From Selenomonadaceae bacterium (GTDB lineage Bacteria; Bacillota; Negativicutes; Selenomonadales; Selenomonadaceae), in assembly GCA_017427545.1 (NCBI GenBank), contig JAFRSO010000077.1:1-64000 (forward strand): a stretch of DNA of 64,000 nt, written 5' to 3'. The position numbers and the translations under genes were made by a program. The stretch's first letter is position 1; the number at the start of each line of letters is the position of its first letter. This document shows positions 1,262 through 54,723 of the stretch, piece after piece. The notes beneath the pieces were generated by a model. It was not told the origin of the DNA, did no database searches, and saw nothing but the letters and a program-made list of their open reading frames with translations.

Positions 1262-1606
1262 TTGAAGACATTTGATTTGGCAAAAAAAATTTGTAAGGCG
1301 GCCTCTGACAAGAAGGCAAGCGAAGTTATTACAATGGACATGCGCGGCGTGATGTTCTCGACGGATTATTTTGTCGTGTGTTCAGCGCAGACGGCAACTC
1401 AAGTGCGAGCGATTGCCGACAACATTGAGGAGGAGCTTGACAAGGAAGGCATTCACTTCAGCCACCGCGAGGGCTATCATGAGGGCGAATGGATTTTGCT
1501 TGATTACGGCGATGTTGTCGCGCACATTTTCAAGGAGGAAAATCGCCAGTATTATGCGCTTGAGCAGCTTTGGAGTGAGGCTAAGATAAAACTCTATGAA
1601 GAATAA
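1262..1606 (+). CDS. rsfS: Ribosomal silencing factor RsfS
   Basis: RsfS binds ribosomal protein L14 on the 50S subunit and blocks subunit joining when nutrients are short. The 114-residue product has the usual family length and the conserved core DYFVVCSAQTATQVRAIAD followed by HEGEWILLDYGDVVAHIF. The start is TTG at 1262, about 8 nt after a good GGAGG; no ATG fits. The 3' end overlaps the next gene by 11 nt, which suggests translational coupling. Confidence 0.96.
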   Translation: MKTFDLAKKICKAASDKKASEVITMDMRGVMFSTDYFVVCSAQTATQVRAIADNIEEELDKEGIHFSHREGYHEGEWILLDYGDVVAHIFKEENRQYYALEQLWSEAKIKLYEE

Positions 1607-2456
1607 ATTACAGCTGAAGCCGATGACGGTCGCGGAACTTAAAGTCGTCCGCCAAAATGAAATGGGAGCTTTCCTTGACGCCGGCACCGGTAAAACTTCC
1701 GATGATATTTTACTGCACAAGGCACAACAGACTGCGGAAGTTTCAATTGGCGAGAAGGTAAAAGTTTTCCTCTACCTTGATCCGAAAAAAAGATTGACGG
1801 CAAGTATGAGAGTCCCGAAGATGCGCGAAGGGCAAATTGCGCGGCTGAAAATTATCAACGTGACGGGCGACGGAGCTTTTGTTGACGTTGGGGCGGAGCG
1901 CGGAATTTTTATGCCGTTCGCCGAAATGCGCGGTCGTCCGAAAGTCGGAGAAATTGTTTGGGCGAAACTTTACAGCGATAAATCCGGACGGCTTGCAGTG
2001 TCAATGAAAGTTTCCGATGAAATTCGCCGAGCCTCAAAACCTGCCGAAGGTATCAAGCGCGGCGATAAAATTAAGGGCGCGGTGTTCAACATTATTGACG
2101 CGGGCGCATTTGTTTTCAGCGAGGAAAGATATATCGTTTTCATTGCGCGGAAGGAAATGCCGCGTGAATTGAGGATTGGCGAAGTCGTCGAGGCGCGAGT
2201 AACTTTTTTGCGTGAGGACGGTCGCCTTGACGCTTCCTTGCGCGCCATAAAAGAAACTGCCCTTGAACGTGACGCCGAAAAAATTTTTAACTTCATGCAG
2301 AAAAACGGCGGCTCAATGAATTTTCACGACAAGACTGCTCCCGAAAAAATTCAGGCCGTGTTCAAAATCAGCAAGGCGGCCTTTAAGCGGGCAGTCGGTC
2401 ATCTTTACAGTCAGCGGCGAATTGAAAAAATTGACGGCGGATTTAAAATCATTTAG
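1596..2456 (+). CDS. cvfB: S1-domain RNA-binding protein, CvfB/YitL family
   Basis: The 286-residue protein has the CvfB layout: repeated S1-type OB folds (roughly residues 5-65, 70-135 and 140-205) followed by a winged-helix-like C-terminus (about 225-286). The second repeat shows the S1 pattern GDGAFVDVGAERGIFMPFAEM. CvfB proteins bind RNA and affect virulence-factor expression in staphylococci; the role here is inferred from the family. The start overlaps the end of rsfS by 11 nt. A terminator follows directly. Confidence 0.85.
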   Translation: MKNKLQLKPMTVAELKVVRQNEMGAFLDAGTGKTSDDILLHKAQQTAEVSIGEKVKVFLYLDPKKRLTASMRVPKMREGQIARLKIINVTGDGAFVDVGAERGIFMPFAEMRGRPKVGEIVWAKLYSDKSGRLAVSMKVSDEIRRASKPAEGIKRGDKIKGAVFNIIDAGAFVFSEERYIVFIARKEMPRELRIGEVVEARVTFLREDGRLDASLRAIKETALERDAEKIFNFMQKNGGSMNFHDKTAPEKIQAVFKISKAAFKRAVGHLYSQRRIEKIDGGFKII

Positions 2457-2465
2457 AAAAAAATT

Positions 2466-2497
2466 ATCCTCCACTCAAACGAGCGGGGGATTTTTTG
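2466..2497. terminator. Bidirectional rho-independent terminator
   Basis: TCCTCC pairs with GGGGGA (one G-T pair), and CTC pairs with GAG inside around an AAAC loop. A run of six T follows on the plus strand and seven T on the minus strand. It sits between the convergent ends of cvfB and the binding-protein gene and can serve both. Confidence 0.75.
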
Positions 2498-2510
2498 TTG
2501 CCGATATCGA

Positions 2511-4043
2511 TTACTTTTTATCCAACGCCGCAGTAATTTCGTAATAATCGGAAGGGTGCGCCTTGAAGCCTTCGACGTTCGGTTTCATGACAAATGACAT
2601 GCGCAAATGCGAGGCGTAAATCAGTGCGCAGTCGTCCAAAATTTGTTGCGACATTTTAACGGCAAGTTCGGAACGTTTATCCGCGCCAAAAGTGTTATGC
2701 AATTCATTTTCCAGGGCGGCAATTTTTTCGCTGTCATAAAAGCCGGCATTATCGACGGCACCGGGCACAATGTGGCTCGTGAAATAATATTCGGGATCGC
2801 CGGTCGGGGCAGTGACAATCGCCTTGCTGAAAATATCGTAGTCGCCGCTCTTGAGGAAAGTTTTGTAATTGTCGGTGGCGTTGACGTTGAGTTTAATGCC
2901 GATGAGTTTCAAGTTAGCTTGCGCGGCCTCTGCGAGAAGCGGAAGTTCTTGACGTGAGGTGTAAGTCAGCCAACGCAATTCAAGATTTTTACCGGCCTTG
3001 TCAACGTAACCGTCGCCGTCAGAATCAATCCAACCCGAATCAGCCAAAAGTTTTTTCGCAGCGTCGAGGTCGTAAGAAACCGCGTGAACTTTATCGCCAC
3101 CGAAAGTCAAATTGGCGGGAAAAGCTCCGATTGCAGGTGAACCGTTGCCGTTGAGCAGGACTTTGCAGAAATTTTCCTTGTCAATCGCCATAGAAATTGC
3201 CTTGCGAACGTTGAGGTCTTGCAATTCGGGCGTCTTGAAATTGAACGCCGCCTGATAAACTCTGGACGTTTCGACTTGCGAAATTTTGTAGCCGTCCTTG
3301 AAAAGTTGCAGGCCGGAATATGGCAACCCTTGTACCGCGTCGAGTTCACCGTTTTGCATTGCCATAGTCAGCGTATCGCCGTCGGGAATGCTCTTGACAA
3401 AAATTTTATCCAACTTCGGCTTGACGGCTCCCCAATAATTTTCATTCGGGACAAGCTCAATTTGCGTGTCAGTGACTTTGACGGCTTTGTAAGGGCCGGT
3501 GCCGACGACGATATTATCCTTGACGCCCGCCTCAACGTCGATAATGCAGCCGTAAGGGTCGCTCAAATAATTCAACAGCGCGGGAACTTTTTCGGAAGAT
3601 TTAATCGTCACGAATTGTCCGTCCGCTTCAATCGCAGAAATTTTCAAGTCACGGGGAGCGCGGTCGTGATTTGCAATCAAAGCCTCCAAACAAGCTTTAA
3701 CTGCCGCACCGTCAACTTTTTTGCCGTTCGAGAAAGTCGCCGCGTCATTGATTTTAATTTTAACGGTGAAGTCGTCAACCTGCTCAAAATTTTCTGCAAG
3801 CCACGGTTCAAGCTCCATGTGCACGTTGAATTTGAAAAGCGTTTCGCCGATACCGTAACGGAGAGTGCTCCAGCCGCTGTAGCTTTCGTGAGGATTTGTG
3901 CCGACATTTTCCATTGCCACGCCGTAAGCAACAGTTCCGTAAGTGAAAATTTTTTCGTCCGTCGAGACAGATTTTTCATCGCCGCAACTTGTAAGGAACA
4001 AGGAAAAAGGAATAAGGAACAAGATTAACAAAAATTTTTTCAT
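2511..4043 (-). CDS. ABC transporter substrate-binding lipoprotein, family 5 (peptide/nickel)
   Basis: This is a periplasmic solute-binding protein of the SBP_bac_5 family (510 residues), anchored as a lipoprotein. The signal peptide ends in the lipobox LTSC with Cys20. The body has the family features: a gate region around FEQVDDFTVKIKI, the RKAISMAID motif, and the closing motif around GDPEYYFTSHI. The ligand could be a peptide, nickel or a metallophore; sequence alone does not decide. No permease or ATPase genes are adjacent. The hydrophobic core of the signal peptide is encoded by heptamer array 3. Confidence 0.88.
   Translation of the reverse strand: MKKFLLILFLIPFSLFLTSCGDEKSVSTDEKIFTYGTVAYGVAMENVGTNPHESYSGWSTLRYGIGETLFKFNVHMELEPWLAENFEQVDDFTVKIKINDAATFSNGKKVDGAAVKACLEALIANHDRAPRDLKISAIEADGQFVTIKSSEKVPALLNYLSDPYGCIIDVEAGVKDNIVVGTGPYKAVKVTDTQIELVPNENYWGAVKPKLDKIFVKSIPDGDTLTMAMQNGELDAVQGLPYSGLQLFKDGYKISQVETSRVYQAAFNFKTPELQDLNVRKAISMAIDKENFCKVLLNGNGSPAIGAFPANLTFGGDKVHAVSYDLDAAKKLLADSGWIDSDGDGYVDKAGKNLELRWLTYTSRQELPLLAEAAQANLKLIGIKLNVNATDNYKTFLKSGDYDIFSKAIVTAPTGDPEYYFTSHIVPGAVDNAGFYDSEKIAALENELHNTFGADKRSELAVKMSQQILDDCALIYASHLRMSFVMKPNVEGFKAHPSDYYEITAALDKK
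3991..4025. repeat. Heptanucleotide repeat array 3, inside a signal peptide
   Basis: Five units (GTAAGGA, ACAAGGA, AAAAGGA, ATAAGGA, ACAAGAT) lie inside the coding sequence. On the minus strand they encode ILFLIPFSLFLT, the hydrophobic core of the lipoprotein signal peptide. Confidence 0.8.
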
Positions 4044-41259: not shown

Positions 41260-41292
41260 AAAAAATAACGGCCTCATGAAATTGAAACCGTT
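41260..41292 (-). terminator. Probable terminator of the NRPS operon
   Basis: On the minus strand AACGG pairs with CCGTT across a 16-nt loop, followed by ATTTTTT. The stem starts inside the last codons of the PPTase gene. The large loop makes this a moderate prediction. Confidence 0.45.
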
Positions 41293-41942
41293 TGAAAAAA
41301 TTTTTCGGTGACGACGGTAAAACTTTCGGGCAAAAAATTTCGTTCGGTACAAATGCCGACGACTGCGCCGCTCAAGAAAAAATTTCTGCCGACAACTTTT
41401 CCGCGCCCCGATAAAATTTCCGTGGCATCAATCGCGGCAAAATCATCATCAATCCCGCGACCGATAAATTTTACGAAACTCTCCTTAATCGTCCAGAAGC
41501 TTAAAAACTTTTCATCACGCGTCCGACCTTCAAGCTTGCAAAGTTGCCGATACTCCTGCGCCGTGAAAAGATTTTCTGCAACAGTGAGGGCGTCGGAAAA
41601 ATTTTCTTCGACATCAACGCCGCTCGGAACTTCGCCGACACTACACGCCGCCCAATTATCGCTGTGCGCCAAACTTATCATCAAGCTGCCGTCGACGACA
41701 TAAGGCTTGCCGTTTAAATCCCGTTCGATTTGAATTTCTTCAACCGTTCGGGAAAATTTTTTTGCAATGACCGCGCGTACCAAAAGTTCCGCCCAAAGTG
41801 TTCGATTTCTGTCCGCCGCGAATTTATATCGCAAAATATTTTCCTGACGCCGCGCCGTGAAGTAATGCAAAAATTTTTCGACAGGCTCATCAAGTCGGCT
41901 CGTCAAATTCAGCAGATAAACTTCAATCAACTCAAACCTCAA
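41274..41942 (-). CDS. Sfp-type 4'-phosphopantetheinyl transferase
   Basis: It transfers phosphopantetheine from CoA to the carrier-domain serines of the NRPS encoded in the same operon. At 222 residues it has the Sfp-class length, with GVDVEE (Mg-binding Asp110, Glu112) and FWTIKESFVKF (WxxKEA-like, residues 150-155). The 5' end overlaps the stop of the MATE gene by 11 nt, so NRPS, transporter and PPTase form one translationally linked set. It may also serve other carrier proteins in the cell. Confidence 0.92.
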   Translation of the reverse strand: MRFELIEVYLLNLTSRLDEPVEKFLHYFTARRQENILRYKFAADRNRTLWAELLVRAVIAKKFSRTVEEIQIERDLNGKPYVVDGSLMISLAHSDNWAACSVGEVPSGVDVEENFSDALTVAENLFTAQEYRQLCKLEGRTRDEKFLSFWTIKESFVKFIGRGIDDDFAAIDATEILSGRGKVVGRNFFLSGAVVGICTERNFLPESFTVVTEKFFQTVSIS

Positions 41943-43683
41943 TAATCGTGTTGTTCATGTTGAGCACCCTGGTATAAGTGAAATTTTTTGCCAGCTTGCG
42001 AATCATATTTATGCCGCCGAGGAGAAATTGACCTTCCTCTTCAGCTTGATATTGAGTCGGGTCGAAGGGGATGCCGTCGTCGCGAATCCTCAAAATCCAT
42101 TGCTCGCCGTCATGCGAAAGATTTATATCAATCAATTTTTTCTTGACTTTGCCGTAACCGTAGCGGGAAATGTTGATAGAAATTTCTTCCGCCGCAAGCC
42201 CCAAGATATATGAAGTTTTCTCGTCGACATTTTTGGAGCGGCAATAGTCAACAATTTTTTTGGAGAGACCGATAGCAATTTTTTCATCCGCCTCAATCGT
42301 CACGTCAAATGAATCGTCATGTTCGGGCTTTGGAATCATCAGCAGGCCTTCTTGCGGAAGTTTGCCTTTATCCTGCAAATATTTTCGCGTGCCCTCAACG
42401 ATAATTATCGTCAGCAGTTCGCTTATCGGAACCGCCGCGCATACTCCGTAAATCCCGTAGTAATGCATGAGCAGAAATGTTGTCGGAATCAGCAGCACGA
42501 AAAATTCAAGTATCGTGTCGAGCGTCGCCAAGAAAGTTTCCAAAATCGTTTGATAGTAATGTTGGAGGAATTCGTTAAAGACGTACAGGACGAAACTCAA
42601 GCTGTAAATCTGCAAGCAGACTGCCGCGGTCGGGAGCAAGTCTTCGTTTTCCATGCCAAACAAAATTGCAATTTCTTCGGGGAAAACCAAGAATACGATT
42701 GTCAGAATTGAAATCAAAACGCCGCTAAGTTCCAAAACTTTTTTCATTAGCTGGCGAATCCCGAAGTAATCTTTTTCGCCGTAGAGGACGCCGCAAATAT
42801 TCGGAATGACGCTGATAATGCCGCCCGCTAAAAGTTCAGCCATAATCAGAGTATTTGAGCAGACCGCGTAAATTTCCATTGCCTCGACACCGAGAATTTT
42901 TAATACGGCGGTGTTGAGTACAAATATCTGCAAGGCCTGCATGACTTCCAACGATACGCGCGGAGTACCGGTTTTGAGTGCGGCGAAAATATCTTTGAAC
43001 CACGCAATGCCGCTCAAGTTGAATTTCAACATTCTGTCGTTGGAGCGGGCGTAGAAAATCAGCGTAATCAATCCGCAAGCATAACCGATAATCGTAGCGG
43101 CGGCGGCACCTTCCATGCCCATTCCCGCGAACTTAACCAGCACAATATCAAATACGACGTTGACGGCTTCGGCGATTGAAAACATCCACGCGCCTAAGTC
43201 GGGATGATTGTCCACGCTCAAAAATTCGCACGTCAGGAAAACCAGCGTCATTATCGGCAAGCCCAAAAGGTTGATTAAAAGATATTCTTCGACGAAGGGC
43301 AATAATCGCGGGTCGGCCGCCACGAGATTAGCAAGCGGCGCATTTATCCAAAAGGCAGTCAGCGCGCCTATGCATGAAAGAATTATTCCCGCGATTACAC
43401 AGGCGGTGAACATGTCGGACGCTTCTTTAAGCTTGCGTTCGCCCAACCAAATTGCAGCAAGCGTCGCGCCTCCCAGACCTAAAATCAATCCGGGCAGGTG
43501 CAAGACTTGAATTATCGGACTGGCCAGCGTGACTGCGGACAATGCGTCAACGCTGATTAAATTGCCGACAATTACGGCGTCGACGACCGAACCCATATGC
43601 ATCGCCATTTCTGACAAGAAACTTGGAATCAGATAGCGATAAAATTTTTTACTTACGAGATAATCGTTGCGTTTATATTCCAT
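41932..43683 (-). CDS. MATE-family transporter fused to an RsbW-like HATPase domain
   Basis: Residues 1-450 are a polytopic MATE/NorM-like exporter (about 12 membrane segments; start YLIPSFLSEMAMHMGSVVDAVIVGN). Residues about 465-583 are a soluble GHKL ATPase domain of the anti-sigma/RsbW type: AAEEISINISRYG (N box), IRDDGIPFDP (G1-like box) and GGINMIRKLAKNFTY. The transporter is likely to export the NRPS product, drug/cation antiporter style. The ATPase domain has no obvious role in transport and may bind ATP or phosphorylate a partner. It starts 3 nt after the NRPS stop and overlaps the PPTase gene. Confidence 0.85.
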   Translation of the reverse strand: MEYKRNDYLVSKKFYRYLIPSFLSEMAMHMGSVVDAVIVGNLISVDALSAVTLASPIIQVLHLPGLILGLGGATLAAIWLGERKLKEASDMFTACVIAGIILSCIGALTAFWINAPLANLVAADPRLLPFVEEYLLINLLGLPIMTLVFLTCEFLSVDNHPDLGAWMFSIAEAVNVVFDIVLVKFAGMGMEGAAAATIIGYACGLITLIFYARSNDRMLKFNLSGIAWFKDIFAALKTGTPRVSLEVMQALQIFVLNTAVLKILGVEAMEIYAVCSNTLIMAELLAGGIISVIPNICGVLYGEKDYFGIRQLMKKVLELSGVLISILTIVFLVFPEEIAILFGMENEDLLPTAAVCLQIYSLSFVLYVFNEFLQHYYQTILETFLATLDTILEFFVLLIPTTFLLMHYYGIYGVCAAVPISELLTIIIVEGTRKYLQDKGKLPQEGLLMIPKPEHDDSFDVTIEADEKIAIGLSKKIVDYCRSKNVDEKTSYILGLAAEEISINISRYGYGKVKKKLIDINLSHDGEQWILRIRDDGIPFDPTQYQAEEEGQFLLGGINMIRKLAKNFTYTRVLNMNNTIIEV

Positions 43684-43686
43684 AAT

Positions 43687-46600
43687 TTAAAATCTCGCAT
43701 TCTCCTCAAAGAAACCTAACGTGTCCAAGGCTTCGATAGCGTTTTTAATATAGTTTTCGTCAGTGATAGACCAGCGGCAGTTCAATCGGTAGAGAGCTTT
43801 GACGGTGAAGCTGTCTTCGTGATCAATTTCGTCACGTAAATTTTCGTCGGACTCATTGTAGGCAATCAAACTTGAAACGAGTAAATTTTTCTCCTCATCT
43901 TGCATGGCAAGCTTGAGCGCGGTCTCAAATTCTTTATCGCTGACAATATCAATTTTAATGCCGTATTCGTTGGCGACGTGAATAACATCGCCCATTTGAA
44001 CGCGGTGGCTGTTGACGGCGTGGAATACTGTAAATTCCGCGTTGGTGTCGGCGAGGGTAACAATCATATGCGCAGTCTCGTCAATCGGTGAAAATTCCGT
44101 CGGCTCGTCCAAAAGTGACACGGGATATTTGCCGATAGCCGAATAACTTCTAATGTCGCGCATGAAAGCGTTGTTCGAGAAGTTGATTTGGAATTCACCG
44201 TCGGAAATGCGGCTCATCAAATTGCCCACGCGAATAATTTTTCCGTCGAGCCGACCTTGACCGATTGCCGTCAAAACCAATTCTTCCGCCCTGAATTTGG
44301 AGTAAACGTATTTGTTCGAGGTGACTTCTTGCCCGATATAAAAATCATCTTCGGAAAGTTTTCTGCCCGCCTGAATTTTTTGACCGACATTATCGCCGGC
44401 AACGCTTACCGTAGAAATTTGAATCAACCGCGTATGTTTTTCGGCGCAGAGGTTAATCAAATTGCGGACGCCCTCAACATTTATGCGCGTCAAAATATCA
44501 CTCGCCGCGAAATGTTTCACGCAGGCCGCGCAGTTAATCAGCGTCTTGAACGGATAATCAATCAGCGCATTGACCGCCTCGACGTTGGTAATATCGCCGT
44601 CAATAATTGTGACGCGTTCGTTAAAAGCTTGTTCCATTGACGAGCTGAAGTAGTAGATAAACAACGTCCGCAAACGTTTTTCCGCCGAAGCCTGTTTATT
44701 GCTGCGAATGAAGCAGAAAATTTTTGCCGAAGTATTTTTAAGCAACTCGTAAAGAACGTGAATTCCCAAAAAGCCCGTCGCGCCCGTGAGCAAAACATCG
44801 CCCAAGCCCTCGTGATGAATTTCGTTGACGTATTCCACGCGATTTCTTGCAAGGGCGTTGTTGATTTGGAAAAGTTCGTTGAGGAATGAGCTGCCCTCAA
44901 TCGGTTCGGAAATTATTGGGCGTTCAATTTTTTTCTCGACGCGATCGGGTATCGGAGCCTGTTGCTTTAAAATGTACGCTTCCAACTTTTCGGCCGTCGG
45001 ATATTTGAAAATGTCGGCGTAGACAATCGGCAAATTTTTCAGGAACGCCGCCATTGCAACTTTCGACGCGGCAAGTGACGTGCCTCCGACTTCAAAGAAG
45101 TTTTCGTCCGCGCCGATATTTTTTCTGCCGAGAGCCTTTGCAAAAATTTCACACAACGTCTGCTGCAAATCGGTTGCGGCAAATTTTTTATCGTCGGCTT
45201 CGACTTGCAAGACAGGTTCGGGCAAAGATTTTTTATCGACTTTTCCGTTAGCGGTGAGCGGGAATTTTTCAAGTTGCATTAAAACTCCCGGCACCATGTA
45301 AGCAGTCAATGATGCCGCCAAATGTTTCCGCAAGTCGTCAAGGTTAATGGGACGTTCGGCAGTGAAATATCCCGCAAGATAATCGCTCGCCGAATTTTTC
45401 TTCACGACAACGATACTTGCCTTGACGCCCGCAAAATTATTCATGACGGTTTCAATTTCGCCGAGTTCAACACGAAGTCCGCGGAGTTTAACTTGATTGT
45501 CCGTCCTGCCGTGAAAAGCAATTTCACCATTCGGCAGAAGTCTTGCCAAATCGCCACTCTTATAGGCCGGTTTATCCCACAGTCGGATAAAAACTTTTTG
45601 CGTCAAGTCGTCACGATTGATATAGCCGCGGCCGATACCGTCGCCGAGAATCGTCATTTCACCGAGTGCGCCGATTGGCAACGGACGATTTTTATCATCG
45701 GTCATTACGACTTTGACGTTTGAATTCGGCAGACCGATTGTGATATTTTCCGCAGACTCGATAGCTTTCATCGTGCAGCTGATTGTAGCTTCAGTCGGGC
45801 CGTAACCGTTCATGATATAAATTTCGGGATTGACGGCGCGGAGTTTCGTGAACAATGCGGCGGGGAACGCTTCCGCCCCTAAGTCAACGGATTTTATATT
45901 TTTGACGACGGATTCAAATTCGGGGAAGTCAATCAGGTTTGCCAAATATGACGGCGTGCAACTCATCAAGTCAACAGAATTTTTCTCGCACAAGTCTTTA
46001 AGCATTAGCGGGTTATGAATTTCATCTTCATTGGCCATGCAGATTGTCAGACCATGCGCCAACGGAATAAACTCTTCCATGATTGACACGTCGAAGGTTA
46101 TAGCCGCCAGTGCCAGCGAAACTTTTCCGCGTTCAGTGTAGCCTAAAATTTCGTGATTCTTCGGATTGGCGTCGACAAAATTAACCAGATTATGATTCGT
46201 GAGCATGACACCTTTAGGCTTGCCGGTTGAACCGCTTGTGTAAATGCAATAAGCCAACGCGTTTTCGGGAACGTCGACGTTGAGATTTTCCGCAGAAATT
46301 TTTTCGGACTGCGTATCTTCTACGAGACAGATAAAAATATTCAGCGCGTCAAAAAATTCTTTGCGGCGATTGTAAATGTCGCGGGTCGTGACAATGTGAC
46401 GGACGTTAGAATCTTCGACGATAAATTTAACGCGGTCGTCGGGATAATCTGGCGTCATCGGTAAAAATGCTCCGCCGGATTTCAAAATACCTTGGCGGGC
46501 GATATAAACTTCAAGGCCGCGATTCAACATCACGCCGACGATTTTTTCAACTCCGACGCCGCTATCTTGCAGGACGTGACCGAGACGATTAGCCGCCGCG

Positions 46601-49600
46601 TTGAGTTCAGCATACGTCAGCGATTTTCCGTTAGCGATTGCGGCAACTCGTTCGGGGAATTTTTCAGCGGTGTCTTGAAGCAGTCGATATGCGGGACGCT
46701 CCAAAACTTTCCAGTCCGTGTCGTGAATATTTTTCAGCCGTTCAAGTTCATCAGCAGAGGTAATGTTCACGTCCGACAAAAATTCACGCGTCAAAAATTC
46801 TCGTGCCACTTGCGCCAGACAATCGACGAAATTTTTCACGGTCGCCGCCGAATAATAATCAGCATGATATTCCGCGTCAAAGCAGAATTCGCCGCCCTCA
46901 ATGAAAATGTCTACTCCGAAAAGCGATTTGGCGTTGTCGAGTTCAAGAGGAATTTCTTCGGCAGGTTCGCCCGCAATTTTAACGTCGTCCGAATCTTCGC
47001 CCTGATAAGCAAACATCACGTCGGCGGCAATTCCGTAGTCGCGGCTGATTTCGGCGAATGAATAAATATCGTTGGTCATGCTCGCGAAAAGTTGTTTGCC
47101 GACTTCAGCAACGTATTCGGCGACGGTTTTATTGCCGGCAATCGAACAGCTGACGGGCAAAGTTTTTACAAGCATGGCGACACTTCGGGCAAGTCTTGAA
47201 TCACTCCGCCCGTTGTAAATCGTCGTGAAAATTGCGTCGTCACGATATAAAAATTTCGCCAGCGTAAATCCGAATGCCGCGTTGAAAAATGCGTTCAGCG
47301 TAACTTTATTTGCCGCGCAGAAATTTTCGGCTGCCGCAACGTCAACATTGAGCTTGCCGAAATCAAACGCGGAAGTCTTCGCACTGCTCAAATCAAAATC
47401 TTTGGCAAGCTTGCAATCGGCATCACAGCCGCGGAAAATCGAATCGTAATAAGCTTTGGCCTTCGAGAAATTTTCACCGACGCGATATCTTTCCTCATCG
47501 AGAGCACGTTCAAAGCCGGTGTAAGTTTCCTTAGCCAAAATTTTTCCGTCGTAAGCGGCGTTGATGTCGTCAATCAAAATGTCAAAAGATTCACCGTCGC
47601 TGACAATGTGGTGGCAGTCGAGGAACAGATAGTTAGGAGTTAGGAGGTAGGAGGTAGGAGTTAAAACCTGCTCCCTGTTCCCAGTTCCCTGCTCCCTAAT
47701 TGAATAAATTTTTGCGCGATAAAGGGGCTTGTTCAAAAGTTCAAAGGGCTGAACAATTTCTTCAGTCGGCGGCAATTTATCGACGTGCAAAACGTCAACA
47801 ACCGCGTCCAAATCGTCATGGCGGCGCGCGCAAATGTCCCCGTCATCATTCATAAAAAGCGTAGTCTTCAAGTAGGGGTGCGCGTCGATTGCAACCTTAA
47901 CCGCCCGTTGCAAGCGTTCAACGTCAACATTTTTTCCGAGGCGATAAAGATTCGGGATATTGTAAGTTGTGCTGTTGGAATTGGCGACGCTCTCAACGAA
48001 AATTCCATTTTGAGTTTGCGTCAAAGGATAGTCAAGCTGCAGTTCGTAAGTTTGCGCCGCGTCAGCACCTGCCAAAAATTTTTCAAGCTGCTCAACGGTA
48101 TTGTGCTCCTTGATGTCGCGGGTACGAATGATTTTCCCGAAGGCGCGCGACAATAAAACGTTAAGCCGAATCGCGCCGATTGAAGTCAGTCCGACGCTGT
48201 AAAAGTCCGTCCGTATTCCAAAATTTTTCGTGCCGATAACTTCCGCCACGCAGTCAAAAATTTTCTGCTGATTTTGATTTTGCGGCGAAGTCGTATCGAT
48301 AGCGGCGGCAATTTTCTTTTTGGAATGGCTGTGAACTTCAACGTCGAATTTTTCCAACGCGTCGGAAGTCAAAAATTTTCCGGCAACGGCTTCACATTCG
48401 CGGGCAAAATTTTTCACGGTCTCGACTTTGTAAACGGTCGGGCGGTATTCAAATCGGAAGATGAACGCGCCGTTCTCCAAGAAAATTTCCAAGCAGAGGT
48501 CTGACATTGCGGCGGAAGGTAACAGCGGTAAAGTTCGCGAAGCAGTCCCGGCAATGTGATAATCGTTAAAGTCTTCGCCCTGATAAGCGCACATCAATTC
48601 GCCCTTGAAGCCGTAAGCCGCTGAAATTTCCGCAAAAGAGTAAATATCGTGAGCCATGCTGTTGACGAGTTGGCGGCCGACGGAATCAATGTAATTTTTG
48701 ACGGAAGAAAATTCTGCAACGTCAGTGAGGACAGGCAGCGTCTTAACGAACATGCCGACACTTTGCAGGAGGCGTGAATCGTTGCGGCCGTGATAAATCG
48801 TCGTGAAAGCCGCATTAGTCCGCCGAGTTTCCTTGCCGAGGAAGTAACCGAACATTGCCAGGAAAAATGTATTGAACGTGCAAGAGTTGGTCGCGCAAAA
48901 ATTTTTCACGGCATCAACGTCGAGGGCAGTCCGATAACTTTCAAATGCGACGACGGAATCTTTCTTGCCGATATTTTCCGCGAAGTCAACTTGCGGCAAA
49001 ATCTCAACGTCACTGTCCGTAAAAATCGAGCCGTAATAATTTTTGGCGGCAGTCAATTTATCGGAGGCGCGAGCTTTTATTTCGTCGAGAGCCGCTTCAA
49101 AGCCTGTGTAAGTTTCGCGGCTCAAAACTTTTCCGTTATAGGCGGCGTTGAGGTCGTCGAAGAAAATATCTTCCGATGAGCCGTCGTAAACGATGTGGTG
49201 GAAGTCGAGGAACAAATAGTTTTTATCGGGCGTCGAGAAAATTTCTGCGCGATAAAGAGGCTCTTCCGTCAGTTTGAAAGGTCGGACGAGTTCAGCCGGT
49301 GCGGGCAATTTCTCAACAATTTTAATCGACACTTCGGCGGGCAAATCATCTTGACGACGTGCGCGAACTTCGCCCTGTTCGTTGAAAAATATCGTCGTCT
49401 TCAAGACAGGGTGCGCGTCGATTGCCGCAATTATCGCCCGTTGCAGGCGGTTGATGTCGATTGACGAATCCAGCGGCAAAAGTATCGGCAGATTGAAAGT
49501 CGTATCGTTCGGCGCGGCGTCATACTCCACGAAAATATCTTGCTGCGTCCGTGACAGCGGATAATCTTGCTGCGCGGCGTGAGTTTGCATTTCTTCCGCG

Positions 49601-51996
49601 TCCGACAAAAATTTTTCCAGCTTTTCAATCGTGTCATGCTCGACGATATCGCGGGTTTGAATTGCCTTATTGAACGCCGACGACAGTAAAACATTGAGCC
49701 GAATCGCGCCGATTGAAGTCAAGCCCGCGCTTGTAAGTTCAGTTGTAATTCCAAATTCCCGCGTGCCCAAAACTTGTGCGACGCAATCAAAAATTTTCTG
49801 CTGAACGTCATTTTGCGGCGGAATGATTTCGACTTCGGAAATGACTTCTTCGGGTTCGGGCAAAGATTTTTTGTCGATTTTTCTGTTAGCGGTGAGCGGG
49901 AATTTTTCAAGCTGCATTAAAACTCCCGGCACCATGTAAGCCGTCAATGATGCCGCAAGATGTTTCCTCAAGTCATCAAGGTTAATCGGACGTTCGGCAG
50001 TGAAATATCCCGCAAGATAATCGCCGGCAGAATTTTTCTTCACGACAACGATACTTGCCTTGACGCCCGCAAAATTATTCATGACGGTTTCAATCTCGCC
50101 CAACTCAACGCGAAGTCCGCGGAGTTTAACTTGATTGTCCGTCCTGCCGTGAAAAGCAATTTCACCGTTGGGCAGAAGTCTTGCCAAGTCGCCGCTCTTA
50201 TACGCGGGTTTATCCCACAATCGGATAAAAACTTTTTTGGTAAGGTCGTCGCGATTGATATAGCCGCGGCCGATACCGTCGCCGAGAATTGTCATTTCAC
50301 CGAGTGCGCCGATTGGCAGTGGTCGATTTTTATCATCGGTCATGACAACTTTGACGTTGGAATTCGGCAGACCGATTGTGATATTTTCCGCAGACTCAAT
50401 CGCCTTCATGGTACAACTTATCGTCGCTTCAGTCGGGCCGTAACCGTTCATGATGTAAATGTTTGGATTGACGGCGCGTAGTTTCGTGAACAATGCGGCG
50501 GGGAATGCTTCCGCCCCAAAGTCAACGGATTTTATATTTTTGATGACGGATTCAAATTCGGGGAAGTCAATCAGGTTTGCCAAATATGACGGCGTGCAAC
50601 TCATCAAGTCAACAGAATTTTTCTCGCACAAATCCTTGAGCATGAGCGGGTTATGAATTTCATCTTCATTGGCCATGCAAATCGTCAAGCCATGTGCCAG
50701 CGGGATAAATTCTTCCATGATCGACACGTCGAAAGTTATCGCCGCCAGTGCCAGTGAAACTTTCCCGCGTTCAGTGTAGCCTAAAATTTCGTGATTCTTC
50801 GGATTGGCGTCGACAAAATTAACCAGATTGTGATTCGTGAGCATGACGCCCTTAGGTTTGCCGGTTGAACCGCTCGTGTAAATGCAATAGGCTAACGCGT
50901 TTTCGGGAACTTCGACGTTGAGATTTTCCGCAGAAATTTTTTCGGACTGCGTATCTTCAACTAAGCAAACGAAAATATTCAGCGCGTCGAAAAATGCTTT
51001 GCGGCGATTGTAAATGTCGCGGGTCGTGACGATATGACGGACGTTAGAATCTTCGACGATAAATTTAACGCGGTCGTCGGGATAATCGGGCGTCATCGGC
51101 AAAAATGCTCCGCCGGATTTCAAAATGCCTTGGCGGGCGATATAAACTTCAAGGCCGCGATTCAACATCACGCCGACGATTTTTTCAACGCCGACGCCGT
51201 TATCTTGCAGGACGTGACCGAGACGATTAGCTGCCGCGTTGAGTTCACGATAAGTCAGCGATTTTCCGTTGGCGATTGCGGCAACTCGTTCGGGAAATTT
51301 TTCAGCAGTGTCTTGAAGCAGTCGATACGCGGGACGCTCCAAAACTTTCCAATCCGTGTCGTGAAAAGCTTGCAATTTTTTCAGCTCGTCATTTGAAAGC
51401 CAATCAACGTCGCCGATTTTTTCCGCAACAAGAAATTTTGTGACGACGTGTTTATAAGCCGCGGCAAAACTTTCAATCAATGCGTCGGAATACTTGCCGC
51501 CGTCAAAGTGAATCGTCACGTTGCAAGAATTTTCAACCGTCAATGCAAAATTTTTATCACCGATATTTTGCGGCGTCGAAATAAATTCGGGGGCGTTCGG
51601 GAAATTGTAAGCCTCGGAAATTTCTTCATAGGGTGCGGAAATTATTTCGCGTGAACGGTCGACTTGCTCACGTAAATTTTTCAAGTAGTCGGCAAGATTT
51701 TGTTCGGGCGACAAATTCAAGTAGACGGGAATTTTTTTATCAGCAGCCGCCGCGAAGAAAACTTCATCAGCTCCTGCAAATCGCGCAAGTAACAAACTGT
51801 ACGCGCCCATAAAAAATTTTTCCTCCGAACAATCGAGCTTCTTGCAAGCTTGACGCAGCTGTTCTTTGGAAAGTTCGACGGATATTTTAAAATCTTTTGC
51901 AACGAAAAATTTTTCAAACGTGTCTTTAATCGGCGCGGAGTCAACTGACACGCCTCGGAATATTGAATCGAGATAAAGCTTTTCGGCCTCTGTCAT
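43687..51996 (-). CDS. Nonribosomal peptide synthetase, [C-lobe]-A-T-C-T-C-A-T-R
   Basis: A 2769-residue assembly line. In order: a partial condensation-like N-terminus (1-200, no HHxxxDG); A1 (210-710; YTSGSTGKPKGVML, NGYGPTE, K in NRKID); T1 (Ser about 759, GLTSIG); C1 (800-1235; HHIVYDG about 932); T2 (Ser about 1270); C2 (1335-1755; HHIVSDG about 1462); A2 (1754-2252); T3 (GGTSLAAS, about 2304); terminal thioester reductase (2388-2769; LLTGATGFLG, YVYSKF). Reductive release predicts a peptide aldehyde or alcohol. T2 has no A domain of its own and must be loaded by A1 or A2. A1 and A2 share the same likely pocket residues (D-V-M-S-D-G-G-I-S), so may use one amino acid. Array 14 is inserted in C2. 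ATG 51996 is preferred to one at 52044. Confidence 0.92.
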   Translation of the reverse strand: MTEAEKLYLDSIFRGVSVDSAPIKDTFEKFFVAKDFKISVELSKEQLRQACKKLDCSEEKFFMGAYSLLLARFAGADEVFFAAAADKKIPVYLNLSPEQNLADYLKNLREQVDRSREIISAPYEEISEAYNFPNAPEFISTPQNIGDKNFALTVENSCNVTIHFDGGKYSDALIESFAAAYKHVVTKFLVAEKIGDVDWLSNDELKKLQAFHDTDWKVLERPAYRLLQDTAEKFPERVAAIANGKSLTYRELNAAANRLGHVLQDNGVGVEKIVGVMLNRGLEVYIARQGILKSGGAFLPMTPDYPDDRVKFIVEDSNVRHIVTTRDIYNRRKAFFDALNIFVCLVEDTQSEKISAENLNVEVPENALAYCIYTSGSTGKPKGVMLTNHNLVNFVDANPKNHEILGYTERGKVSLALAAITFDVSIMEEFIPLAHGLTICMANEDEIHNPLMLKDLCEKNSVDLMSCTPSYLANLIDFPEFESVIKNIKSVDFGAEAFPAALFTKLRAVNPNIYIMNGYGPTEATISCTMKAIESAENITIGLPNSNVKVVMTDDKNRPLPIGALGEMTILGDGIGRGYINRDDLTKKVFIRLWDKPAYKSGDLARLLPNGEIAFHGRTDNQVKLRGLRVELGEIETVMNNFAGVKASIVVVKKNSAGDYLAGYFTAERPINLDDLRKHLAASLTAYMVPGVLMQLEKFPLTANRKIDKKSLPEPEEVISEVEIIPPQNDVQQKIFDCVAQVLGTREFGITTELTSAGLTSIGAIRLNVLLSSAFNKAIQTRDIVEHDTIEKLEKFLSDAEEMQTHAAQQDYPLSRTQQDIFVEYDAAPNDTTFNLPILLPLDSSIDINRLQRAIIAAIDAHPVLKTTIFFNEQGEVRARRQDDLPAEVSIKIVEKLPAPAELVRPFKLTEEPLYRAEIFSTPDKNYLFLDFHHIVYDGSSEDIFFDDLNAAYNGKVLSRETYTGFEAALDEIKARASDKLTAAKNYYGSIFTDSDVEILPQVDFAENIGKKDSVVAFESYRTALDVDAVKNFCATNSCTFNTFFLAMFGYFLGKETRRTNAAFTTIYHGRNDSRLLQSVGMFVKTLPVLTDVAEFSSVKNYIDSVGRQLVNSMAHDIYSFAEISAAYGFKGELMCAYQGEDFNDYHIAGTASRTLPLLPSAAMSDLCLEIFLENGAFIFRFEYRPTVYKVETVKNFARECEAVAGKFLTSDALEKFDVEVHSHSKKKIAAAIDTTSPQNQNQQKIFDCVAEVIGTKNFGIRTDFYSVGLTSIGAIRLNVLLSRAFGKIIRTRDIKEHNTVEQLEKFLAGADAAQTYELQLDYPLTQTQNGIFVESVANSNSTTYNIPNLYRLGKNVDVERLQRAVKVAIDAHPYLKTTLFMNDDGDICARRHDDLDAVVDVLHVDKLPPTEEIVQPFELLNKPLYRAKIYSIREQGTGNREQVLTPTSYLLTPNYLFLDCHHIVSDGESFDILIDDINAAYDGKILAKETYTGFERALDEERYRVGENFSKAKAYYDSIFRGCDADCKLAKDFDLSSAKTSAFDFGKLNVDVAAAENFCAANKVTLNAFFNAAFGFTLAKFLYRDDAIFTTIYNGRSDSRLARSVAMLVKTLPVSCSIAGNKTVAEYVAEVGKQLFASMTNDIYSFAEISRDYGIAADVMFAYQGEDSDDVKIAGEPAEEIPLELDNAKSLFGVDIFIEGGEFCFDAEYHADYYSAATVKNFVDCLAQVAREFLTREFLSDVNITSADELERLKNIHDTDWKVLERPAYRLLQDTAEKFPERVAAIANGKSLTYAELNAAANRLGHVLQDSGVGVEKIVGVMLNRGLEVYIARQGILKSGGAFLPMTPDYPDDRVKFIVEDSNVRHIVTTRDIYNRRKEFFDALNIFICLVEDTQSEKISAENLNVDVPENALAYCIYTSGSTGKPKGVMLTNHNLVNFVDANPKNHEILGYTERGKVSLALAAITFDVSIMEEFIPLAHGLTICMANEDEIHNPLMLKDLCEKNSVDLMSCTPSYLANLIDFPEFESVVKNIKSVDLGAEAFPAALFTKLRAVNPEIYIMNGYGPTEATISCTMKAIESAENITIGLPNSNVKVVMTDDKNRPLPIGALGEMTILGDGIGRGYINRDDLTQKVFIRLWDKPAYKSGDLARLLPNGEIAFHGRTDNQVKLRGLRVELGEIETVMNNFAGVKASIVVVKKNSASDYLAGYFTAERPINLDDLRKHLAASLTAYMVPGVLMQLEKFPLTANGKVDKKSLPEPVLQVEADDKKFAATDLQQTLCEIFAKALGRKNIGADENFFEVGGTSLAASKVAMAAFLKNLPIVYADIFKYPTAEKLEAYILKQQAPIPDRVEKKIERPIISEPIEGSSFLNELFQINNALARNRVEYVNEIHHEGLGDVLLTGATGFLGIHVLYELLKNTSAKIFCFIRSNKQASAEKRLRTLFIYYFSSSMEQAFNERVTIIDGDITNVEAVNALIDYPFKTLINCAACVKHFAASDILTRINVEGVRNLINLCAEKHTRLIQISTVSVAGDNVGQKIQAGRKLSEDDFYIGQEVTSNKYVYSKFRAEELVLTAIGQGRLDGKIIRVGNLMSRISDGEFQINFSNNAFMRDIRSYSAIGKYPVSLLDEPTEFSPIDETAHMIVTLADTNAEFTVFHAVNSHRVQMGDVIHVANEYGIKIDIVSDKEFETALKLAMQDEEKNLLVSSLIAYNESDENLRDEIDHEDSFTVKALYRLNCRWSITDENYIKNAIEALDTLGFFEENARF
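45215..46735 (-). repeat. Long direct repeat, copy 2 (A2-encoding)
   Basis: This 1.5-kb segment matches 49853-51373 at a constant offset of 4638 nt with no insertions or deletions seen at either end. Only about a dozen residue changes separate the two encoded A domains. It covers motifs A1-A10. Confidence 0.85.
47632..47701. repeat. Heptanucleotide repeat array 14, inserted in an NRPS C domain
   Basis: Ten units in register (GTTAGGA twice, GGTAGGA twice, GTTAAAA, CCTGCTC, CCTGTTC, CCAGTTC, CCTGCTC, CCTAATT) lie inside the NRPS gene. In translation they give REQGTGNREQVLTPTSYLLT, placed about 10 residues before the HHIVSDG of C2. The paralogous C1 has only four residues (TPDK) there, so the net gain is 18 residues and the frame is kept. 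Confidence 0.88.
49853..51373 (-). repeat. Long direct repeat, copy 1 (A1-encoding)
   Basis: Partner of 45215-46735; see that entry. The flanking T and C domains of the two modules are clearly more diverged than the A domains, so identity drops sharply outside these limits. Confidence 0.85.
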
Positions 51997-52141
51997 AAAA
52001 AAATCAACCTGCCTTTCCTTGACTAATGCCAAATTTGAAAGCATTTTAGTTGAGATTGTTTGCTAAGTCAACTTGAACGCGGCTTTTATCGGCGGCGGAT
52101 TTTTTGATATAATCGATGAAAATTTTTGAGGGGCGGTTGAA

Positions 52142-52741
52142 ATGATAGCGGTAATTGTAAAAATTTTCTGCGCGGCAATTTTGAGCATAGGCGGTTCGCT
52201 GTGGATAAATAAACTTTATTCGAGGAGCACGGAGTTGACTTTTCCCGGAAAAATTTTAAGCCGCTCAAGATTTCGTATACCGATTTTATTTGTGACGCAG
52301 GCAATTTTATTCAACATGACGGACGAATTATTTTTAATGGCGGCAATTTTTTTACTCATGCTGATGACGGTGACGGACTTTGAACAGTACATGCTCTTCG
52401 ATGCAATGACGGTATCATTCGTGGTAATCGGCGCATTTTACGCGTTACAGAATTCGACGTTGCAGGATAATTTTTTGGCGGCGGCATTTGGCAGCGGAAT
52501 ATTTTTTCTGCTCGCGATAATCTCTCAAGGCTCACTCGGCGGCGGCGACGTGAAATTAATTTTCGGGCTGGGAATGTGGCTCGGTGCCGGAAAACTTTTA
52601 AACGTCGTATTGGTCGGAACAATTATTGGAGGCGTTGCGGCAATTCTGATGATTCTCGCCAAGAAAAAAAGTCGTAAAAGTTATTTTGCTTACGGCCCAT
52701 ATTTTACGTTGAGTGCGTTATATTTTTTACTCGCCGGCTGA
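52142..52741 (+). CDS. A24-family prepilin-peptidase-like membrane protein
   Basis: This small (199-residue) membrane protein has the two aspartates of the type IV prepilin peptidase family: TDFEQYMLFD after the second or third helix and GGGDVKL after the next. It lacks the N-terminal cysteine methylation domain of full PilD, so it resembles the short TadV/CpaA-like or single-domain forms. Six to seven membrane helices are visible. No pilin or secretion genes are near, so its substrate is unknown. The gap upstream holds TATAAT at about 52108 with a poor -35. Confidence 0.82.
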   Translation: MIAVIVKIFCAAILSIGGSLWINKLYSRSTELTFPGKILSRSRFRIPILFVTQAILFNMTDELFLMAAIFLLMLMTVTDFEQYMLFDAMTVSFVVIGAFYALQNSTLQDNFLAAAFGSGIFFLLAIISQGSLGGGDVKLIFGLGMWLGAGKLLNVVLVGTIIGGVAAILMILAKKKSRKSYFAYGPYFTLSALYFLLAG

Positions 52742-52758
52742 AGATTTTCTAATTTGAA

Positions 52759-52923
52759 GCCGTCAAGGATGACGGCTCCGCCCGCGCACTGAGCGTGATG
52801 CGAAGTCCGCGGGCAACACCTGCTTACGGGTAATCGCAACGTTGAAATTATGAGCGATTAACGCCCCTGCGAGGCGCACTTTCTTTTTGCTACTTTTTCT
52901 TTGGGCGCGCAAAGAAAAAGTAG
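52759..52923 (+). repeat. Structured repeat element, copy A
   Basis: First of three related ~165-nt elements. It opens with the hairpin GCCGTC-aaggat-GACGGC, has a GCCCGCG/CGCGGGC hairpin, a region around CGGGTAATCGCAA, and closes with a 13-bp hairpin CTACTTTTTCTTT/AAAGAAAAAGTAG with loop GGGCGCGC. It fills most of the 293-nt gap between the prepilin-peptidase and ABC-transporter genes and has no open reading frame. Confidence 0.85.
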
Positions 52924-53034
52924 ATTAATAATATAAAAGTCATTCCACGTTACGGAATAGTTATTCAACTCTCCCTAATCCTTTACTTGAAAAACTTTTG
53001 AGCGGCGATTATACTTGCGCGGGAGGTTTTGCTC

Positions 53035-54723
53035 TTGGATACGAAAAAATTATTTCGCGGCTTCTGGTCGCTGTTCAAAGGTTATTGGTCGAGTGAGGAC
53101 AAGTGGAAGGCTCGCGGATTGTTGGCAGTCGTCATTGCAATGAACTTCGCGATGGTCTATCTGCTCGTCCAACTCAACGAATGGTATCAAATTTTTTGGG
53201 ACGCGCTACAAAATTACGAACAGGAAAGATTTTTCCCGTTGCTCGGACGATTCAGTGCGCTGGCGTTCATTTACATAATCATTGCAGTTTACGCAGTCTA
53301 CTTGCGGCAAATGTTGCAAATAAAATGGCGCACGTGGATGACGAATAATTATTTGCGCGCGTGGCTGGACGGGCAGACTTATTATCGGCTGCAGGACGCG
53401 ACTGACAACCCCGATCAGCGTATTTCGGAGGACATCGGGCAATTCGTCAACTTATCGCTTGCCCTGCTCATTGACTTTTTAAAGCAGCTGACGACTTTGG
53501 CGGCATTCGGCGTGGTGCTGTGGAATTTAAGCGGCTCAATCACAATCGCAGGCCTTGTTATTCCCGGCTACATGTTTTGGTTCTCACTCATCTATTCGGG
53601 TATCGGAACTGTTTTGGCGCACAAGGTCGGACGAAAATTAATCGCGCTGAATTTTGACCAGCAAAAGTACGAGGCTGATTTTCGTTTCAGCATGATGCGT
53701 GTCCGTGAAAATTCGGAGAGCATTGCATTTTATCGCGGCGAACAGGCGGAAATGGAAGGCTTCAATCTGAAATTTTCCAACGTCATAAAAAATTATTGGC
53801 AGCTGATGAAGAAAACCAAGCACTTGAATTTTTACGCGAACGGCTACGCGCAACTGGCTGTCCTCGTGCCGTATCTCATGGCGTATCCGAGATACTTTGC
53901 AAAAGAAATTCAACTGGGCGGGCTTATGCAAATATCATCGGCGTTCGGAAGAGTTCAAGACGCGTTAAGTTTCTTCGTCGATTCATACGACACGTTGGCG
54001 AATTTGGCAGCGGTAATCAATCGACTTGCGGGCTTCACCGAACACATGGACGAGGCTAAAAAAATTCAAAGCAAAGTCACGACTTCGACGGCTCCCGAAT
54101 TAAAAATTTCCGCGCTGAATGTTTCACTGCCGACGGGTCGCGAACTGTTGAAAAAACTTTCACTGCAACTGGAAAACGCAAAATCATTGTTGGTGACGGG
54201 GGCATCAGGTTGCGGGAAGTCGACACTGCTTAGAACTTTGGCGGGAATTTGGAATTACGCTTCGGGAGAAATTTCCTTGCCGCAAAATTCGCGCGTGATG
54301 TTCCTGCCGCAAAAACCGTATCTGCCGCTTGGAACGTTGCGACGAGCATTAATTTATCCCGCCGCAGAATGTGATTCGCCGCCCGATGATAAACTCAAGA
54401 AAATTTTGCAGACGGTCGAATTGCCGGATTTGGCAGACAAACTCGACGTGGCGGACGATTGGAGCAGAATTTTATCCTTGGGCGAACAACAGCGTCTTGC
54501 ATTTGCGAGAGTGTTATTATCCGCGCCCGATTACGTTTTCTTGGACGAGGCAACCAGTGCGCTTGATGAGCCGCGAGAAGTTGAAATGTATCAACTGTTG
54601 CGGAAGGAATTGCCCGCCGTAACAGTCGTCAGCGTTGGTCACAGGTCGACGCTGTTTAAATTGCACGACATGCAATTACATTTGGACGGCCGCGGTAACT
54701 ATCAATTAGCTGCTAGTTACTAG
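53035..54723 (+). CDS. ABC transporter, fused permease-ATPase, SbmA/BacA-like family
   Basis: Residues 1-330 form a six-helix membrane domain of the ABC_membrane_2 type (WYQIFWDALQNYE, RTWMTNNYLRAWLDGQTYYRLQ, DNPDQRISEDI). Residues 355-562 form the ATPase: Walker A GASGCGKST (about 392), signature LSLGEQQRLAFAR and Walker B YVFLDEATSALD. Relatives (YddA, BacA, Rv1819c) import hydrophilic peptides or cobalamin, or export in other cases. TTG 53035 is preferred because GGGAGG lies 8 nt upstream; TTG 53029 is too close. The C-terminal LAASY and stop are from heptamer array 15. Confidence 0.87.
   Translation: MDTKKLFRGFWSLFKGYWSSEDKWKARGLLAVVIAMNFAMVYLLVQLNEWYQIFWDALQNYEQERFFPLLGRFSALAFIYIIIAVYAVYLRQMLQIKWRTWMTNNYLRAWLDGQTYYRLQDATDNPDQRISEDIGQFVNLSLALLIDFLKQLTTLAAFGVVLWNLSGSITIAGLVIPGYMFWFSLIYSGIGTVLAHKVGRKLIALNFDQQKYEADFRFSMMRVRENSESIAFYRGEQAEMEGFNLKFSNVIKNYWQLMKKTKHLNFYANGYAQLAVLVPYLMAYPRYFAKEIQLGGLMQISSAFGRVQDALSFFVDSYDTLANLAAVINRLAGFTEHMDEAKKIQSKVTTSTAPELKISALNVSLPTGRELLKKLSLQLENAKSLLVTGASGCGKSTLLRTLAGIWNYASGEISLPQNSRVMFLPQKPYLPLGTLRRALIYPAAECDSPPDDKLKKILQTVELPDLADKLDVADDWSRILSLGEQQRLAFARVLLSAPDYVFLDEATSALDEPREVEMYQLLRKELPAVTVVSVGHRSTLFKLHDMQLHLDGRGNYQLAASY

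Follow-up and report, generated by a model that had tools for sequence, protein, structure and literature searches.

Two near-identical adenylation domains for three carrier domains in a nonribosomal peptide synthetase of a Selenomonadaceae bacterium, a candidate tripeptide-aldehyde synthetase

We report that a 64,000-nucleotide stretch of DNA (positions 1 to 64,000 of contig JAFRSO010000077.1, assembly GCA_017427545.1, Selenomonadaceae bacterium; referred to as the window) carries on its minus strand an operon, 41274-51996, for a nonribosomal peptide synthetase (NRPS), a MATE exporter with a fused HATPase domain and an Sfp-type phosphopantetheinyl transferase (PPTase), in that order. The NRPS has three carrier (T) domains and two adenylation (A) domains, A1 and A2. 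We consider it rather probable that it is a tripeptide-aldehyde synthetase whose two homogenised A domains, having one shared specificity, load all three carriers. Beyond a preliminary description of the operon, our data reveal that A1 and A2 are near-identical and that the MATE protein carries a HATPase domain. Also new are the concerted evolution of A1 and A2, the loss of A2 in one relative (G019; G and L denote our genome and locus numbers, respectively) and the finding that most relatives from beyond the genus are trimodular enzymes of the ordinary kind, with the same MATE-HATPase.

According to this model, the PPTase would prime T1, T2 and T3, and A1 and A2 would activate the same amino acid, A1 loading T1 and A2 loading T3, while T2 would be loaded by A1 or A2 of its own or a neighbouring chain. 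Two peptide bonds would be formed by the condensation (C) domains C1 and C2, and the reductase domain (R) would free the T3-bound tripeptide, probably one kind of residue three times, as an aldehyde by two-electron reduction for export by the MATE-HATPase protein. The likeness of A1 and A2 would be kept by gene conversion. Sharing of A domains has precedents in its logic, and what is unusual is that a single genus shows it in a graded series. In the yersiniabactin system (HMWP2/HMWP1) several carriers, among them those of modules without an A domain, depend on one A domain; specifically, HMWP2 has a single A domain, for Cys, which serves the peptidyl carrier proteins PCP1 and PCP2 in cis as well as PCP3 in trans (PMC9547227). 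With its Cy and polyketide synthase parts this system differs in architecture, and the parallel is one of mechanism only.

Domain architecture of the NRPS

Searches with profile hidden Markov models (HMM) gave the order C(0.4)-A-T-C-T-C-A-T-R for the NRPS, followed by MATE-HATPase and PPTase, and Pfam predicted two AMP-binding, two Condensation, three PP-binding and one NAD_binding_4 domain. This agrees with the preliminary description, which had noted an unusual A-T-C-T-C-A-T-R order behind a partial C domain and counted three carriers, two C and two A domains. From the N-terminus, and all on the minus strand, a C-domain remnant (51379-51996) is followed by A1 (49840-51378), T1 (49600-49827, GLTSIG), C1 (48340-49587, HHIVYDG), T2 (48061-48291, GLTSIG; the module without an A domain), C2 (46750-48048, HHIVSDG), A2 (45205-46749), T3 (44950-45183, GGTSLA) and R (43690-44847). 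There are fewer A domains than elongation carriers, and the carriers and C domains are intact. The remnant is a C-terminal lobe making up approximately 40% of a C domain; it matches C2 with an E-value of about 1e-9 and is 54-77% conserved in the genus; an AlphaFold model of the remnant together with A1 had a pLDDT of 33 and was not used.

The terminal reductase, also predicted previously, is an NAD(P)H-dependent thioester reductase with its NAD_binding_4 match at residues 2419-2660, the Rossmann motif TGATGFLG and a Tyr-Lys pair in YVYSK. The solved R domain closest to it is that of the NRPS structure 6vtj, an archaeal PCP-R structure, and it also resembles the R domain of AusA (4f6l). R is intact, and the earlier prediction that the product would be released as a peptide aldehyde stands.

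C2 of the window also carries an in-frame heptamer insert (47632-47697, minus strand), consisting of a GGGARCA-type repeat and then a CTCCTAA-type half, which is absent from C2 of nine aligned relatives. The pattern has 57 matches in the genome, many of them overlapping, while the reversed control gave 0. A separate insert is present in C1 of G056, at the loop equivalent to that of the window's C2 insert.

Concerted evolution of the A domains and their specificity code

A1 and A2 align over 1,513 bp without a gap and with 93% DNA identity. On both flanks the identity drops to about 0.45 within one 60-base step, and the edges of the block coincide exactly with the A domain. The C1-C2 and T1-T2 pairs are related and far more diverged. 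Among full copies in the genus, A1 and A2 of one genome are 88-92% identical at the DNA level, as against approximately 76-85% for the same A position across species in most species pairs; only between the closely related G036 and G014 are orthologues (92%) more alike than paralogues. In the A-domain tree A1 and A2 of the window are sisters (0.982). Since A1 and A2 resemble each other within a genome more than the same A domain does across most species, the sequences show concerted evolution of the two domains in most species of the genus, a process already described for certain NRPSs (PMC4256081). Contig ends of G033 that are 100% identical were left out of the evidence for conversion, as they span 138 bases and likely represent assembler overlap. 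Homogenised A domains also occur outside this genus; in L101, L122, L117 and L113 some neighbouring A domains within one protein are 79-95% identical.

Code positions were taken from HMMER alignments to LgrA and from motif anchors, and compared with the Stachelhaus table. The A1 and A2 codes are near-identical in the genus, following D[VI]M[STIN]DGG[IV]S with an invariant Asp299, and in the window both read DVMSDGGIS. The code resembles the cysteine code DHESDVGIT (D235, S278, D299, G322 and I330 in common), so that the substrate may be cysteine-like, but Asp299 could also suit a basic residue. Four relatives (L091, L093, L098 and L103) have Lys at position 278 (code DVIKIGSVT). Ruminopeptins inhibit a Glu-specific protease, and as a lead only these relatives may therefore be of a Glu-aldehyde type.

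Distribution and conservation within the genus

The gene family was detected in 12 of 66 genomes of the genus, which are MAGs (metagenome-assembled genomes) of rumen Selenomonadaceae, and 11 of the 66 have an unbroken C-T-C without an A domain for T2 (53-85% identity). Among 398 sampled genomes of the phylum, E 1e-60 was reached by just two more, each with matches to a single T-C unit only. The closest copies are found in records named Selenomonadaceae or Selenomonadales MAGs, and goat, sheep and red deer are the source of many of these. The full order is present on a single contig in the window, G050, G036 (where the contig ends in R), G024 and G056; the G014 copy is split over two contigs, and the contigs of G043, G033 and G059 end inside A copies. 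G038 (53% identity) reads T-C-T-C-A-T-R with frames broken in A2 and R. In G019 A2 is missing and C2 joins T3 via a short linker (LAEVCRSENPPAESLRQTLCEIF), with all other domains, including T2, C2, T3 and R, intact; it has one A domain for three carriers. Finally, G057 has the form A-T-C-A-T-R without C1, on a contig that begins inside A1.

The A3 and R motifs are intact in all full copies, as are the HHxxxDG of C1 and C2 and the carrier Ser of T1-T3, the C and carrier motifs referring to six long sequences. For all domains tested dN/dS was 0.03-0.24 (highest for the C remnant), with 0.03-0.23 for T2, 0.10-0.16 for C1 and 0.11-0.18 for C2, i.e. within the range of T1 and T3, and C1 is better conserved than C2. 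Because the motifs are intact and dN/dS is low, we conclude that T2 and C1 are maintained by purifying selection.

Relatives outside the genus and origin of the domain order

Outside the genus 78 loci were chosen by two short motifs, and the frequencies among them are not population estimates: according to the domain table approximately 30 of the 78 read A-T-C-A-T-C-A-T-R and approximately 20 read C-A-T-C-A-T-R. Most of these have a MATE gene, often HATPase-fused, and some a PPTase gene. Many of the 78 loci are from Lachnospiraceae and Ruminococcus, at about 40-50% identity, in keeping with the kinship to gut Firmicute peptide-aldehyde clusters proposed in the preliminary description. The Lachnospiraceae A-T-C-A-T-C-A-T-R loci L059, L063 and L066 (46-49% identity to the window in the T-C region) have the same domains, order and fused exporter apart from the middle A domain and the front C remnant, and their three A domains have three different codes and are only approximately 30% identical to each other (two loci compared). 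A terminal C-T-R module without an A domain occurs in Butyrivibrio sp. Su6 (L117) and the Lachnospiraceae MAG L121. An A remnant considered in L117 was rejected; the apparent partial A domain proved to be a stretch of N in the scaffold.

Related R-ended NRPSs were also seen in records named Colimorpha, Bacteroidales, Fibrobacter, Treponema, Spirochaetia, Desulfoluna and Coriobacteriia (L096, L102, L104, L106, L108, L112, L115, L116, L101 and L122), and their occurrence in such diverse lineages suggests wide horizontal transfer.

In the C-domain tree the grouping of C1 with C2 has a support of 49-59 and alternatives were not rejected (p-AU 0.35 and 0.10), so the order may have arisen in two ways, by duplication of a T-C unit or by loss of the middle A domain. 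The earlier notion of an A-T-C-A-T-R enzyme with an extra C-T unit corresponds to only one of these, and outside relatives are mostly A-T-C-A-T-C-A-T-R.

Guo and co-workers reportedly described, in 2017, a family of 47 gut peptide-aldehyde/pyrazinone NRPS clusters; kinship with gut clostridial R-ended NRPSs is seen here among the 78 loci. Like the gut peptide-aldehyde clusters, e.g. the ruminopeptin cluster (rup) of Ruminococcus bromii, the window has a small R-ended NRPS from a gut anaerobe, and many of its sequence relatives in gut bacteria likewise have MATE and PPTase genes. The products that we find described for the gut clusters are dipeptides, whereas the window has three carriers, no A domain for T2, a homogenised A pair with one code and another host family. 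Most of the gut loci examined here have one A domain per carrier, in contrast to two for three in the window and one for three in G019. The best NCBIfam match is the aureusimine synthetase AusA (NF047350), which follows A-T-C-A-T-R logic without the extra C-T unit of the window, and the score of 1139.7 bits lies below the equivalog cut-off of 2500.

Loading of T2 and alternative explanations

In a FastTree phylogeny T1 and T2 are sister groups (0.947), for which reason the A domain that loads T1 plausibly also loads T2. Sharing of A domains is, moreover, the simplest reading of the G019 enzyme, since this runs three carriers on one A domain. The preliminary description had held that T2 must be charged in trans; T2 indeed lacks an A domain of its own, but an outside enzyme is not needed, in view of the near-identity and common code of A1 and A2, the closeness of T2 to T1 and the single A domain of G019.

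An unlikely alternative, which nevertheless survives best, is that T2 stays uncharged and that C1-T2 is passed through or skipped, giving a dipeptide aldehyde that would cyclise to a pyrazinone or dihydropyrazinone. This would fit the absence of an A domain for T2, the form of G057 without C1 and the known gut products, which are dipeptide aldehydes and pyrazinones (PMC12327764). A skipped C1 should, however, decay, and C1 is the better conserved of the C domains with its HHxxxDG in place; many relatives with every A domain present are, in addition, trimodular.

Less probable again is charging of T2 in trans by a separate A enzyme with another substrate, yielding a mixed tripeptide aldehyde. 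Stand-alone A domains that serve modules without one are known from syringomycin (PMC8949500), and the genome of the window encodes, next to a radical SAM gene, a stand-alone A domain fused to a GNAT acetyltransferase (A-GNAT protein; 648 aa, G000:C16), with similar A matches in G019, G024, G036 and G050. Yet its gene is unlinked to the cluster, the carrier that T2 most resembles is T1, with A1 as its partner, and in G019 a further module has lost its A domain with no replacement adjoining.

That the order is an assembly artefact of near-identical A copies, or a decaying gene, is hardly credible: the contigs that end inside A copies do indicate that the repeat disturbs assembly, but five genomes have the full order on one contig, repeat collapse would delete T1-C1-T2-C2 and not the middle A domain alone, and frames are open with low dN/dS. 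An assembly error caused by the A repeat was rejected given the full-length copies in other genomes.

Some points weigh against loading of all three carriers by a shared A type. Almost every relative is a MAG; purifying selection means that T2 and C1 matter and is no proof of an amino acid on T2; in G057 the extra C-T unit is dispensable, or the front of the contig is missing; and the A-GNAT protein could in principle load T2. Its gene lies in L123 (G000:C16:14500-19500) at 1570-3513, beside genes for the radical SAM protein and an esterase. Elsewhere in this genome, L125 (G000:C76:4000-7500; 1713-2654, minus strand) encodes a STAS domain that continues into the initial part of an AMP-binding domain, after which comes a stop.

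Operon layout, exporter and PPTase

The operon lies in a 2.44-Mb draft genome of 91 contigs and comprises three minus-strand open reading frames (ORFs), 43687-52044 (2,785 aa, NRPS), 41932-43683 (583 aa, MATE protein) and 41274-41942 (222 aa, PPTase). Three bases separate the NRPS stop from the MATE start, the PPTase start overlaps the MATE stop, and hemL follows the PPTase gene on the same strand. Directly upstream of the NRPS gene is a sigma-70-like promoter, TTGACT-17-TAAAAT (52043-52071, minus strand; a consensus match only). As this promoter-like site covers the upstream ATG, the NRPS probably starts at Met17 of the longest ORF (51996), giving a gene at 43687-51996 and a protein of 2,769 aa; the preliminary description had placed the NRPS end at this same position.

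The MATE protein (Pfam MatE) has a C-terminal HATPase_c_2 domain of the RsbW/SpoIIAB-like, anti-sigma-like kind, in which the N-box and G-boxes are kept as judged by eye (AAEEISINISRYGYG, DDGIPFDP and LLGGINMI). Export may possibly be coupled to a partner-switching regulator. The MATE-HATPase fusion is common among relatives, beside related NRPSs in many gut lineages. In Methanobrevibacter ruminantium the rumen NRPSs mru0068 and mru0351 lie beside MatE exporters and anti-sigma-type regulators (PMC2812497); unlike the window these have an archaeal host, separate regulator genes and, as described there, complete modules.

The PPTase (Pfam ACPS and AASDHPPT_N) is of the Sfp type, with an ACPS fold, a long form of more than 200 aa and the motifs GVDVE and WTxKES. 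The only other PPTase match in the genome is a 126-aa frame of AcpS size. The dedicated exporter and PPTase genes reported earlier are thus present in adjoining ORFs, and calling the cluster self-sufficient holds for the most part, with the reservation that the PPTase gene adjoins it only in some species.

Both G056 and G019 have a DUF362 gene after MATE, and G056 has a stand-alone condensation-domain gene there as well (L041 11093-13389; L042 13354-14307); neither is present in the window. Upstream of the NRPS gene, and divergent from it, are genes for a type IV prepilin peptidase and for an ABC transporter of the SbmA/BacA-like kind (52142-54723); among the relatives checked, neither was found adjoining the NRPS. 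Apart from a distant nth match downstream of MATE in G038, no gene that flanks the cassette in the window is next to it in any species checked. Since the flanking genes are not kept, either the cassette is mobile or its surroundings have been rearranged; a search for plasmid carriage of the cassette gave no match.

Predicted product and implications

If T2 is used, the product is likely a tripeptide aldehyde with one residue three times. Such an aldehyde is expected to be linear or hydrated and not a pyrazinone because, on chemical reasoning, it would need a nine-membered ring where a dipeptide aldehyde needs a six-membered one; the pyrazinone-like product proposed earlier is expected only if T2 is skipped. 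Gut NRPSs of this kind are known to make protease-inhibiting peptide aldehydes (PMC12282076, PMC12327764), and by analogy the product likely acts on proteases of microbes or of the host. It would be a new rumen peptide aldehyde.

As a tentative extension, A domains may have been lost stepwise in this clade, from three to two to one, with conversion keeping the remaining ones interchangeable, so that one A type serves all carriers and homo-tripeptide aldehydes of an unusual residue are made. Substrate predictors that assume one residue per A domain would mis-predict the product of the window's NRPS. Finally, the natural enzymes with two A domains and with one for three carriers provide a ready set to probe A-domain loading beyond its own module, a standing question in NRPS engineering.

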